A stretch of DNA of 58,936 bases from a virus. Positions 53,829-58,936 of the stretch are shown one piece after another (the stretch's first letter is position 1; each line of letters begins with the position of its first letter). The position numbers were made by a program, and so were the translations under genes. The stretch covers positions 1 to 58,936 of IMG/VR virus record IMGVR_UViG_3300017613_001793, one strand, 5' to 3'. The notes below the pieces were generated by a model. The model ran no database searches. It had not been told where the DNA came from and worked only from the letters and a program-made list of their open reading frames with translations.

Positions 53829-54347
53829 TTAAGCGCTCTTAGTAACTGGATATAAGTACTTGAAAGACTGATTTCTACCAGCAACGTTTCCTTCGTTGAT
53901 ACTAACATTGTCACTTTCAATGAACATTCCCCTTACTGTTGCGTAAGGAATTGCTTTTGGTTTAATTAACTTTGTGTTTGGGTCAATTACATCTGCAAGC
54001 TTCTTGAATACGTCAATATCCACACCTAAATCATTAAGAACAAGTTGGTCCTCAAAATTCTCTTGGTTATTACCTGATGCAATCTGAGATAAGATATTAG
54101 AACCAAATACTCTTTCTATTGCATCTGTAACTCCAGATGTTTCATAGTTTACTTCCCAGAAGCTACATGAAACAGTCCCTGACCATTTGATAACAGCAAA
54201 TTCATCTGAAAAGATACTTCCTAATCCTTTAGACACATCTATTCTTCCGATAGTCTCGTTAATAGATACATCTTTCATTTTACCAATTGCCTGTCCTCTC
54301 ATCTTGATTATTGCAATCGCTCCTGTTAAAACTTTATTGTCAGCCAT
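53829..54347 (-). CDS. Tail tube protein
   Basis: A 172-residue beta-rich protein. The pattern GAIAIIKMRGQAIGKMKDVSI, then EFAVIKWSGTVSCSFWEVNYE is typical of tail tube proteins, where an early beta-hairpin is followed by a central helix. It lies right after the tail sheath gene and directly before a strong terminator, as in many contractile-tail phages. It forms stacked hexamers inside the sheath. Confidence 0.8.
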   Translation of the reverse strand: MADNKVLTGAIAIIKMRGQAIGKMKDVSINETIGRIDVSKGLGSIFSDEFAVIKWSGTVSCSFWEVNYETSGVTDAIERVFGSNILSQIASGNNQENFEDQLVLNDLGVDIDVFKKLADVIDPNTKLIKPKAIPYATVRGMFIESDNVSINEGNVAGRNQSFKYLYPVTKSA

Positions 54348-54377: not shown

Positions 54378-56024
54378 TTATACGTTTACTGTAAATCCTG
54401 TGAAGAATAAGAAACTTATTTCACTGTTTGGTGTAAACTTGTATGTTACGCAATATGCATCTTGTTCTCTTTCAACAGTGATGTCTTGGAATCCAAGGAT
54501 TAGATTATCTGAACTTGGAGAAGCTATCTTTCTTAATAAATATCCCTCAATCCATGTCTTAACATCTAATTCAGATAACGTATTTCTGTTAACTCCATTA
54601 GGGTCTTTTAATAATTGTGCTTTTGCATTAACAATTATCTCTTTATTCAACTGTCTTGTAATTCTCTTAATTTGTTTAGAGTGGATTGTTCCATCATCAT
54701 TAATCAAGAAGTCATTTTTCTGTAAAGAATTAACTCCTTTTACGATATCGAAACTAGGTCCTTCTAACCTAGACACTAATAATCCTGCATCTAATGCAGC
54801 AACTACCTCTTTGTCATTTAATGTGTGAACCTCTCCATCTATCTTGATATTCTTGAACGTAAGAGGTACTTGAGGCTCTAATCCAGCTTCTCTACCAAGT
54901 AAGGCTGCTGCTTTGTAATAAGAGTCATAGACCTTAAATCCTGTCCCCACACTTCTAGATGCTATCTTTACACCACCATGAACTACTGTTACGTGGTCAT
55001 TGTCATAAAACAATGCAGTTGCTTTAGAGAACTCAAATCCACCTATATCACTTCCTGCAGCAATATAAAGCTCTGGCTTGAATACGCTGTTGTCTACGAT
55101 GTGAGTAAGTATCTTGAAGTTGTTAGCTGACTGTGCATCACTATCTCCCCAGTCATCTGCGAAAATAAAGCTAATGTTTACATCAGCAATCTCATCTAAT
55201 ACTTTTGTTAAGTTAGCTGTAGAGTAAACTTCTGTTCCTCCTGTTGCTAGATTATAATTTAAGTTACCTGCAAGGTCATAGTCATCTACCGAACCATCTC
55301 CTGCTACAGTGTTAGATTTTAATTTGAAGTGCGTGTTAAATACATAATCACCTTCCATCCAAGTGAATAACTCAGTCATGTCGTTAAACTCAGGTGTCGT
55401 TAAAATTAACTGTGGTAATGCATCTGCTTGCGTAATTCCATTAAAAGGTGTTCCGTTTTGGTCCAACCCTGTATATGTCCCTTTGTAAAATTTCAATACG
55501 AATTTGGTTGCATCTACTTCACCTGCTTCCATTAAGGCAGCAACTCCTGTTGATAACTCACCGTTAAATAAAACTCCATTCCCAACTAATCCTTCATCCC
55601 TCATCTGTAGTGTGAAGTCACCTCCATTAACTACACTCTCACTTCCATCACCATCTCCTGTGAAAGAATAAGATAATTCGGCTGGAACTGTTGTTGCAGC
55701 TCTAACATAAAGTACTTTTGATACCCCATCAACACCTGCTCCTGCAGGAGAAAATAATGGGTCTGCTAACAGATTCCAAACACCACCTTTTGTGTGGCTC
55801 TTCATCTCCTCAGTATCTGACAATATGTATATAGACCCTTTTCCAGACTCTAATGTACCATCGATACCAGAACCTCCACCATAACCTGCACCACTTCCTG
55901 TGTCTATTATTAATGTAGTTCCGAAATCTAAATCCAATGGAGGGTTTTTCTGTCCTGACTTAATTGTAGAACGCACTCCTGGTATAGTTACTATCTTTCC
56001 GTTAAAATTGAATTTTGTACTCAT
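54378..56024 (-). CDS. Tail sheath protein
   Basis: A 548-residue protein. The N-terminus has the sheath pattern IPGVRSTIKSG (about 14-24) and a Gly-rich loop GSGAGYGGGSG. The C-terminal part includes IIVNAKAQLLKDPNGVNRNTL and the block ILGFQDITVEREQDAYCV, a common sheath ending with donated strands. Length and order (sheath then tube) fit the contractile tail. It is the main structural protein of the tail. Confidence 0.88.
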   Translation of the reverse strand: MSTKFNFNGKIVTIPGVRSTIKSGQKNPPLDLDFGTTLIIDTGSGAGYGGGSGIDGTLESGKGSIYILSDTEEMKSHTKGGVWNLLADPLFSPAGAGVDGVSKVLYVRAATTVPAELSYSFTGDGDGSESVVNGGDFTLQMRDEGLVGNGVLFNGELSTGVAALMEAGEVDATKFVLKFYKGTYTGLDQNGTPFNGITQADALPQLILTTPEFNDMTELFTWMEGDYVFNTHFKLKSNTVAGDGSVDDYDLAGNLNYNLATGGTEVYSTANLTKVLDEIADVNISFIFADDWGDSDAQSANNFKILTHIVDNSVFKPELYIAAGSDIGGFEFSKATALFYDNDHVTVVHGGVKIASRSVGTGFKVYDSYYKAAALLGREAGLEPQVPLTFKNIKIDGEVHTLNDKEVVAALDAGLLVSRLEGPSFDIVKGVNSLQKNDFLINDDGTIHSKQIKRITRQLNKEIIVNAKAQLLKDPNGVNRNTLSELDVKTWIEGYLLRKIASPSSDNLILGFQDITVEREQDAYCVTYKFTPNSEISFLFFTGFTVNV

Positions 56025-56050: not shown

Positions 56051-56374
56051 TTAATCAATTACTTTTTTGTCCTTACAAACCTGAATCCAGTTGTCGTAAG
56101 AATCTTTTGTTTTTCCAAAGCATCTTTCTAAGTATTTTATAGAAACTCTGTCTAATTTATATAAATTACCGAACTCATACGCGGTAAATGCCTTTATTTC
56201 CTCTACAACCTCTTCTTTTTTGACTTCTACCGCTTTAGTTGCCTTAGCTATTTCGATGTCTTCCCACACCTCAATCTTGTCTAATAAGTCATTTCTTTTG
56301 TCATTTCTAGTAAAAGAGATGTTCTTCTCTCTACAGAATGCTTTCATTTCTCTTATGTTCTTGAACTTTTCCAT
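56051..56374 (-). CDS. Small protein with HeH/SAP-like N-terminus
   Basis: A 107-residue protein. Residues about 5-35 (NIREMKAFCREKNISFTRND, then KRNDLLDKIE) match the helix-extended loop-helix/SAP-like pattern used in small DNA- or protein-binding modules. The rest is charged with a C-terminal helical part. It is situated between neck and sheath genes, so a head-tail or packaging role is possible; unassigned. Confidence 0.5.
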   Translation of the reverse strand: MEKFKNIREMKAFCREKNISFTRNDKRNDLLDKIEVWEDIEIAKATKAVEVKKEEVVEEIKAFTAYEFGNLYKLDRVSIKYLERCFGKTKDSYDNWIQVCKDKKVID

Positions 56375-56732: not shown

Positions 56733-58394
56733 TTAAAAGTGCACCCTTATTTGATGATAGTACCAATTGTTTGTTTTTGGTGTAAAAGATAAAATGCCAT
56801 TTGAGGAGAAATGCCTCGCCCTTGTGGGCGTTACTCTGCTTGTTGTGCTTGTATATTGTGTCCTATTACCTCCCATCCACATTATATTGATACTGTATAG
56901 ATTGCCATCTGAATTAAAAATGCTTAATAATTCGTTACTATTGGGTAAATACCAGCCCCCATAACCATCCTGTGTACTACTTAGACAGCTATCAATAGCA
57001 TTATTCCAATTACTTTTTACACTTGTAGTTGTACTCTTACTGTAGTACCATCCTAAGCCTGTTAGATTATCAATAATATACCTGTCTGTATTCCAATCTG
57101 GGATATCTACATAATTATCAACAGTCGTTGCGTTTCCACCTGTATCTGTAAATCTTAAATAATTACCAAATTCGTTTGGGTGTAGGAGCGTGAACCAATT
57201 GGCGCCTAATTCTTGCTCGTATAGAGGATTAACAGGGTCAGCAGGATAGGGCATATTGACCTGCCTCCAGTAATCATCTCCAACTCTATACTGTAAGGTC
57301 TGGCCTGTATTATTTGGCCTTTTGTATTTTATCCCTGCTTTCACTGGAGTTGGTATTGCAACAATGTCTTCCATTGAGGGGATGCTTGTTGTTGTTCCAT
57401 CTGAATCTGTGAAGTTGATATTCGGTAAGTCATGGTCCTCTAGCGTATCTACTGAGTAACTATTATTGTAATTACTAATATTAATTGGTACAGGTGTCGG
57501 TATGGGTGTGCACACCATTGGTGTCTGCGCTGGGAGTATAACTATATTCCCATCTGAATCTGTATGGTTTATGTCTTTTAATACAAAGATATCTCCTGAG
57601 CCTATATCTTTTGCATAGGTCGAATCACTATTTTCTATAGTAGCATCTGAACATGCAGGTGGTAAGCATACTCCCTCTGGCAGTACCTTAGCTAAAGGAA
57701 TAACCTCTTCCCTTCCTGTTGGAGGCTCACTTAATACAGAGAACTTAGTACAGATTTGCTGTATTATGTCTTCTGGGAATAAACTTTCTACTGTTACTTC
57801 GTATTCAAGGGCTAATCCTATTGCTCTCATGAAAATATGGGTCGGTACAATAGTGTTCATGTTTTGAATATCCCTTCCGCTTAATTTGATATTTTCTAAC
57901 CCCACCATATTAAAATGGTCAATCACAGGAATTAGTATTCCTCTTAGAAGGTGATATATCATTACTACCTCATTTGAATTATCACTTGTGACAACCAATT
58001 GGTATTGTGTTGAAAATCTTCTTGTGTAATTTGGTTTCTGTTGGTCTTCACCACCCATTCCCTTTACTTCTTGATACCCCCTATATCCCTCATCCAATGA
58101 CAATCCATCCTTATCTGATTGCTCAGCAGGTAATGTAATGTGTATTGTTGGGATATTTGCTCTCTCCATATTGAAGAAAACATTAACATCTAGAAATCTA
58201 GGATTATCAGGCTTTGCTAGAAAAACTGTTTTTGCTTGTTCAAAGAAGTTGTATCTTTGTAAGTTATTATCTCCACAGATTCTAAAAAGCAGAGTATCTT
58301 CCTCATTATCGAAGTTGTCGAAGTCTGTTCTTATGAACTCCAGTATTGCCTTTACTGCATTAAATATCTGTATTTCTGGTACTAATACTCCCAT
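56733..58394 (-). CDS. Neck/tail-completion protein fused to a C-type-lectin-like (DUF1566) domain
   Basis: A 553-residue protein. Residues 1 to about 235 resemble a tail-completion protein of the neck (FNAVKAILEFIRTDFDNFDN, then IYHLLRGILIPVIDHFN). About 270-430 holds three repeats with a core like TDSDGNIVILP or FTDSDGTTTSIP, common in Bacteroidota phage tail proteins. About 435-553 is a DUF1566/C-type-lectin-like domain (NLTGLGWYYSK, YGGWYLPNSNELLSIF, then ARHFSSNGILSF and KTNNWYYHQIRVHF). The last part resembles the variable region of retroelement-diversified lectins. It would put a binding domain on the neck. Confidence 0.65.
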   Translation of the reverse strand: MGVLVPEIQIFNAVKAILEFIRTDFDNFDNEEDTLLFRICGDNNLQRYNFFEQAKTVFLAKPDNPRFLDVNVFFNMERANIPTIHITLPAEQSDKDGLSLDEGYRGYQEVKGMGGEDQQKPNYTRRFSTQYQLVVTSDNSNEVVMIYHLLRGILIPVIDHFNMVGLENIKLSGRDIQNMNTIVPTHIFMRAIGLALEYEVTVESLFPEDIIQQICTKFSVLSEPPTGREEVIPLAKVLPEGVCLPPACSDATIENSDSTYAKDIGSGDIFVLKDINHTDSDGNIVILPAQTPMVCTPIPTPVPINISNYNNSYSVDTLEDHDLPNINFTDSDGTTTSIPSMEDIVAIPTPVKAGIKYKRPNNTGQTLQYRVGDDYWRQVNMPYPADPVNPLYEQELGANWFTLLHPNEFGNYLRFTDTGGNATTVDNYVDIPDWNTDRYIIDNLTGLGWYYSKSTTTSVKSNWNNAIDSCLSSTQDGYGGWYLPNSNELLSIFNSDGNLYSINIMWMGGNRTQYTSTTSRVTPTRARHFSSNGILSFTPKTNNWYYHQIRVHF

Positions 58395-58397
58395 CTT

Positions 58398-58936
58398 TTA
58401 AAATCCTAATGTATCTAATATTTTATTCACTGCATGATTTAACTCAGCCTCTGCATTTTGCTCGAAGCTACTTAATGCCCTTCCAGCTAGATTATGAGTA
58501 TCTATCCCAGGATGTGTCCAACTATCATCCAAACTCTTGTCTGACACTTTCCTGAAGCTCATATACATACTTTGGTCTGTCTTACTATCCCTTACCTTAA
58601 TAACTCCCTCATAGATGCTTTTGAATGCTTTTGATTCCGGCACTTCTCCTTGGGCGTTAGTGTTGGGTGTCTTGTATTCAGCAGGTATCTCTCCTATCTG
58701 TAATCCAGAACTTCTTCTACCCCCACCAGGAACATCTATATTTGTTTTCTTGTTCTTAACAATGCTATATATGTCCTTTGGCATTTTATTTGAAAACACT
58801 GAGCTTTCACCTATTGAGCCTGGGGTTGAGTGTCTAAATGGAATTGTTAAATACCATCCACCATCTGCTTTTAATTTCTTTTTTGAGGATTTTCTAAACC
58901 CTTCTTTCAAATCAAATGCTGATGCACCTTCTTCTA
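58398..58936 (-). CDS. Neck protein, HK97 gp10-like (partial, N-terminus beyond the window)
   Basis: The frame continues through the right edge of the window: upstream of a possible TTG at 58910 the codons read EGASAFDLK in phase, so the true start lies outside. The visible 179 residues contain GGWYLTIPFRHSTPGS and a C-terminal helix (LNHAVNKILDTLGF). These are consistent with the gp10-like neck or head-tail joining proteins of tailed phages. It is followed 3 bases later by the neck/lectin fusion. Confidence 0.6.
   Translation of the reverse strand, partial: EEGASAFDLKEGFRKSSKKKLKADGGWYLTIPFRHSTPGSIGESSVFSNKMPKDIYSIVKNKKTNIDVPGGGRRSSGLQIGEIPAEYKTPNTNAQGEVPESKAFKSIYEGVIKVRDSKTDQSMYMSFRKVSDKSLDDSWTHPGIDTHNLAGRALSSFEQNAEAELNHAVNKILDTLGF

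Follow-up and report, generated by a model that had tools for sequence, protein, structure and literature searches.

Why a protein of the head-tail joint should end in a lectin-like domain, and whether such a domain could serve phage attachment away from the tail tip, is the question raised by a single uninterrupted open reading frame of 553 amino acids at positions 56733-58394 (minus strand), whose chain ends C-terminally in KTNNWYYHQIRVHF. The window, as we call the whole stretch of DNA analysed, comprises all 58,936 bases of an IMG/VR record, which is a linear fragment, and its source is a virus of bacteria, specifically a myovirus, as seen from genes for a sheath, baseplate, DNA polymerase III, class II ribonucleotide reductase and a GroEL-like protein. 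The latter chaperonin is encoded by the phage at 1449-3077 (PF00118, E 1.9e-77). The features of the locus are collected in Table 1.

Table 1. Features of the terminator locus in the window, with the evidence for each assignment.
Feature	Position	Strand	Basis
Upstream neck protein, truncated at the window end	58398..58934	-	PHROG 16819, E 4e-29; related loci keep this family upstream of the terminator
Tail terminator domain, residues 1-221	57732..58394	-	Homology to pre-sheath gene of related phages; AlphaFold2 fold
Linker, residues 222-339, most of two ~47-residue TDSDG units	57378..57731	-	Low pLDDT; repeat alignment
Mobile cassette, residues 340-553	56736..57377	-	Alignments and IMG/VR relatives; common to unrelated phages
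Lcl_C / DUF1566 C-type-lectin-like domain, residues 440-546	56757..57077	-	Pfam; fold match
Partner gene of the cassette, 85 aa	56465..56722	-	Homologous ORF follows the cassette gene directly in unrelated phages
Small pre-sheath gene, 107 aa, outside the cassette	56051..56374	-	C-terminal motif common to relatives; comparable terminator-sheath ORFs in L007, L009, L011, L023, L051, L072
Tail sheath	54378..56024	-	PHROG 279, E 5e-19
Probable tail tube	53829..54347	-	Directly after sheath; weak virion-structural PHROG 985 match

Homology, synteny before the sheath and predicted fold identify the N-terminal domain as a tail terminator, so that the 'head-tail joining domain' of the first-pass annotation can now be named more specifically. 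Residues 3-217 are 27-33% identical to a protein of about 220 amino acids whose gene immediately precedes that of the sheath in Chryseobacterium phage MA9V-3, where the match to the N-terminus reaches an E value of 4e-32, and in Bacteroides phages (among them DAC16 and SJC03), and distant Lysinibacillus SPO1-like phages match residues 57-217. In the window, the gene likewise lies between the neck protein genes and those of sheath and tube. With the terminator domain and residues 222-553 modelled separately, the AlphaFold2 model of the former, built from 33 sequences, reached a mean pLDDT of 89, and its top fold match was the tail terminator of phage 812 (Foldseek E 1.5e-8). VIA scored this terminator at Z 15.6 (199 residues aligned to 8q01_M, rmsd 4.0) and Z 15.3 (197 residues), and the next matches were mostly terminators and tail caps, namely those of Pa193, E217, T5, XM1 and lambda gpU. 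The Pfam model SP10_terminator matched the N-terminus below the cut-off (E 0.042) and the terminator alignment, searched as a profile against the PDB, retrieved no relative; the fold search alone found one. The terminator gp99 of phage 812 is a hexamer that caps the tail (PMC12886913), and by analogy with this homologue the protein of the window would form a hexamer as well. Over about 200 residues the predicted fold of the window protein agrees with that of gp99, as does its pre-sheath position (8qkh, 8q01; PMC12886913), whereas the gp99 chain of about 275 residues is without the lectin extension that the window chain carries.

This extension is exceptional among the relatives of the terminator. 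A sheath alignment used as bait in IMG/VR led to 80 related loci. With the window and isolates counted, 77 loci encode a terminator homologue; the other 76 homologues are all standalone proteins of 205-345 amino acids. A second bait search with terminators gave 22 hits, partly on the same contigs, and the 21 complete ones have 214-236 amino acids and no extension. Querying IMG/VR directly, be it with the full protein or the terminator of a relative, returned no match. Within this clade, the lectin fusion is thus found in the window only, among about 90 terminators.

The related loci display peculiarities of their own. In L064 (1457-1561 and 3611-3622) and L067 (3123-3190 and 4837-4850), the terminator ends in an apparent half BACON domain (..WTLE*) and the other half (MAKAAWLT..P.SG) opens the next ORF, a pattern which recurs at later gene boundaries. 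A frameshift is unlikely because of stops and intergenic gaps, and these split proteins may join by fold complementation. Additional genes between terminator and sheath, in L008 (2729-5725), L074 (3636-5990), L064 and L067, comprise metallopeptidase-like, amidase-like and endonuclease-like ORFs and repeat proteins, as read from sequence only. The sheath of L042, L044, L048, L058, L065, L070, L073 and L086 exceeds that of the other members of the group by about 100 residues (about 650 amino acids; 874 in L086), which suggests inserted domains.

At its other end, the same uninterrupted chain carries the DUF1566/C-type-lectin-like domain recognized early on. Lcl_C/DUF1566 (PF07603) matches with an E value of 4.8e-10 and 40.2 bits, above the gathering score of 34.9, and structure prediction, which agrees with the proposed architecture at both ends by giving a terminator fold N-terminally and a C-type-lectin-like fold C-terminally, identifies the C-terminal domain of Legionella Lcl as the best solved match (8q4e; Foldseek 2.8e-4, Z 9.7, 119 residues, rmsd 3.2, 18% identity), followed by many C-type lectins with Z scores of 7-8.7. 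Legionella Lcl is a trimer which binds sulphated glycosaminoglycans, and its DUF1566 domain may, according to the same work, have a part in trimerisation as well as in recognizing carbohydrate (PMC11162425). Judged by this fold, the C-terminal domain of the window protein is probably sugar-binding. Lcl from Legionella pneumophila resembles the window protein in Pfam family, fold and the C-terminal placement of the domain on a long stalk (8q4e; PMC11162425), but its identity to the window domain is about 18% and its stalk is collagen-like and exposed on the bacterial surface.

Between the two domains, a linker of low pLDDT contains the TDSDG-containing units of about 47 residues, which the repeat alignment places at residues ~251-297 and ~303-349; from about residue 352 on, pLDDT values in the model of residues 222-553 are mostly 80-90. 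Of the three TDSDG repeats originally described, two are therefore linker units, while the third motif reads TDTGG and belongs to the conserved FGNxxRFT segment of the cassette. Similar TDSDG units also precede the cassette in L105, L110, L121 and L138.

The C-terminal cassette leads a life independent of the terminator. An alignment search of IMG/VR with the cassette yielded 357 tblastn-confirmed relatives, 80 of which were kept for analysis, and the 79 non-identical cassettes fall into 49 clusters at 60% identity, with more than 110 residues before the cassette in the representatives of 37 clusters. The cassette is grafted onto at least five types of neck protein: the 812-type terminator of the window, a gp17-type terminator (Tail_completion_gp17, PF11367, with fn3; L126, L119, L113), a phrog_4671 terminator with a weak fn3 match, encoded between the Hc1 head-closure gene and the sheath (L092), a phrog_1004 neck protein (L058/L090) and a PF05521 head completion protein (L151). 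The phrog_1004 carrier belongs to a relative of the window phage whose own terminator is plain, and the fusion has 554 amino acids compared with 163-437, mostly 250-280, in the other 58 homologues. In L092 and L108 the cassette is 53-54% identical to that of the window; their N-termini resemble the window's no better than unrelated sequences do. The same cassette on unrelated head-tail joint proteins makes it a mobile unit, and the lectin region of L141 and L149, 98% identical with no match upstream, is as expected of module exchange. Further cassettes are standalone genes or part of tail proteins, as in L087. Not every fusion is proven to sit on a neck protein because the N-termini of the L105 type matched no identified protein; with no tie to terminators found, they were left out of the neck-protein count.

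Almost all carriers found are uncultured phages. Neither of the two cassette forms used as queries, those of the window and L159, convincingly matched any phage of an isolate collection, and a search of one genome per species with the cassette gave only one match, in a Flavobacteriales MAG. Tandem lectin cassette genes, each followed by its own small ORF, occur in L125 (6567-9653), L143 (6843-9628) and L175 (7761-9476).

Besides its carrier, the cassette is accompanied by a small downstream gene, the 85-residue partner, which had been missed by the first-pass annotation. A profile made from three partner members found others independently, with a best E value of 2e-24. An ORF of 55-130 amino acids starting with ATG follows 69 of the 73 non-redundant cassette genes, as opposed to 56 of 284 other genes (Fisher p 1e-33, a value which overstates independence since the genes are related); counted by cluster, the linkage holds in 42/49. 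A second common partner subfamily (MATYKFPQFNVEIVNPT...) may be a remote relative of the first (hhalign E 9.5e-5, probability 59%). The first subfamily occurs in six of the 34 records searched, all of them cassette carriers that had gone into the query; it is absent from the other 28, the phage of L058 included, whose partner-like ORF is too divergent for the first-subfamily model. Searches for the family gave nothing convincing in the PDB and no named PHROG, and none with NCBIfam for the window's partner. The simplest guess is that the partner of about 80 residues probably helps the lectin domain to fold or assemble.

Whether the lectin domain is diversified by a retroelement was an obvious concern. 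DUF1566 was the commonest domain among targets of diversity-generating retroelements (DGRs) in one human microbiome survey (PMC4159848), which made the suspicion reasonable, and a DUF1566/C-type-lectin fold at the extreme C-terminus, as in the window, is typical of such targets, also in phages (PMC4159848; Bacuni phages, PMC8143477). A reverse transcriptase encoded at another place in the phage genome and, the window being a fragment, perhaps outside it, would then use a template to rewrite the 3' end of the gene, which would be the variable repeat. We regard this as very unlikely, since in contrast to the known targets neither enzyme, template nor signature was found. The window, as stated initially, contains no reverse transcriptase and no template repeat, the best candidate of the template scan having 17 non-adenine mismatches in 70, which is chance level. 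Reverse transcriptases are equally absent from 65 related records, and 50 further records gave only a broken sub-threshold fragment, so that neither the window nor about 110 related records, many of them fragments, contain an intact enzyme. The fragment, from the phage of L153, was not counted, as it is weak, with 43 amino acids open and four stops inside. Scanning 1.2 Mb of cassette loci gave no template repeat but a few low-count hits with 33-39 mismatches in 60. The last approximately 360 bases of the lectin region are indeed locally divergent in three groups of related phages, at 55-78% identity versus 85-95% in the flanks (L094/L097/L101, 68-77% versus 85-94%; L138/L161/L167, 74-78% versus 90-95%; L151/L178, 55% versus 86%). 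The adenine test was performed on the cassettes of relatives, the window itself being without a close relative, and showed no adenine enrichment; third codon positions and indels are among the variation. The pattern looks like divergence and module exchange rather than adenine mutagenesis, and does not support the proposed reading of the 3' end as a DGR target.

The reading we favour, with a probability of about 0.6, is a tail terminator ring with tethered Lcl_C domains that acts as a neck-displayed multivalent glycan adhesin and forms a mobile two-gene unit with the partner. A hexameric terminator ring would cap the contractile tail at the head junction, with each subunit extended by a tether of about 120 residues, two TDSDG units included, and then by the C-type-lectin-like Lcl_C domain. 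About six lectin domains would surround the neck, possibly arranged as trimers as in Lcl, and could provide a multivalent, probably weak, adhesin whose target would be extracellular matrix, mucus or a polysaccharide on the host surface and which would supplement the receptor-binding proteins at the far end of the tail. The cassette and the partner of about 80 residues would travel together. Exposure at the neck and glycan binding are predicted from fold and position, and the role of the partner is likewise a proposal. Of the original proposal of a whisker-like neck adhesin for mucus or surface binding, the neck protein and the lectin-like domain stand, the adhesin is plausible by analogy and the recurrence of the cassette on unrelated neck proteins speaks for it; mucus in particular is neither favoured nor disfavoured. 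The most forceful argument for the usefulness of neck display is that the cassette has been grafted onto connector proteins repeatedly, and faster divergence of the lectin region than of its flanks is as expected of a ligand-binding domain. Against an adhesin it can be held that the C-terminal strands of the 812 terminator complement the sheath (PMC12886913), the outward route of an extension not being obvious, that DUF1566 may also act in trimerisation, that the fusion is confined to the window within its terminator clade, and that the cassette can also stand alone or sit on proteins of other kinds.

The main rival, which we hold to be unlikely, is a structural decoration of the neck in which Lcl_C and partner stabilise or assemble the collar, for example by trimerising, and bind no ligand. 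The DUF1566 domain of Lcl contributes to trimerisation (PMC11162425), the neck of phage 812 has decoration proteins thought to reinforce it (PMC12886913) and the presence of a partner gene points to a unit for folding or assembly; yet more than 75 terminators of the same family manage with no Lcl_C extension, the cassette moves between unrelated scaffolds and its lectin region, unlike a scaffold, diverges faster than its surroundings. That a missing stop merely joined the terminator gene to an adjoining cassette gene, giving an assembly chimera or an accidental functionless fusion, is the least probable of the readings considered: the fusion has been seen once only in this terminator clade and standalone cassette genes exist, but the frame is continuous through a repeat linker that accompanies the cassette elsewhere too, base composition does not change abruptly at the junction, and independent contigs again show the cassette, the partner and a related fusion to a neck protein.

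Adhesins borne on the neck have precedents, and so do DUF1566 domains in phages. Lactococcal 936 phages possess CBMs on the neck passage structure (NPS), one of which binds host cells (PMC6669499), and this structure is, by analogy, the closest functional precedent for the neck-displayed adhesin: like the proposed window protein, it presents many copies of glycan-binding modules at the neck, in addition to the receptor-binding proteins of the tail tip and exchangeable between phages. The 936 NPS is, however, a separate collar protein with a BppU-like N-terminal domain, coiled-coil fibres and other CBM folds, whereas in the window Lcl_C is fused directly to a terminator through a TDSDG-repeat linker and comes with a small partner gene. 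Neither a repeatedly grafted lectin-terminator fusion with a small partner gene nor any paper treating DUF1566 and tail terminators together was found in the literature searched, the coverage of which was incomplete. A broader reading, tentative and at somewhat below even odds, is that a portable two-gene adhesin unit, the Lcl_C cassette with the partner as chaperone or second subunit, spreads by grafting onto any available connector, be it a terminator, a head-completion or another neck protein, as a general neck-adhesin strategy missed by isolate collections.

For annotation, the locus illustrates that DUF1566 in a phage need not imply a DGR or a tail fibre, and the partner adds a previously undescribed gene family. 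The tail tip is where receptor-binding modules are generally looked for; here the terminator, an assembly part, seems to have been turned into an adhesin carrier, which offers a concrete example in which capture of host or habitat glycans at the neck could be tested cheaply.
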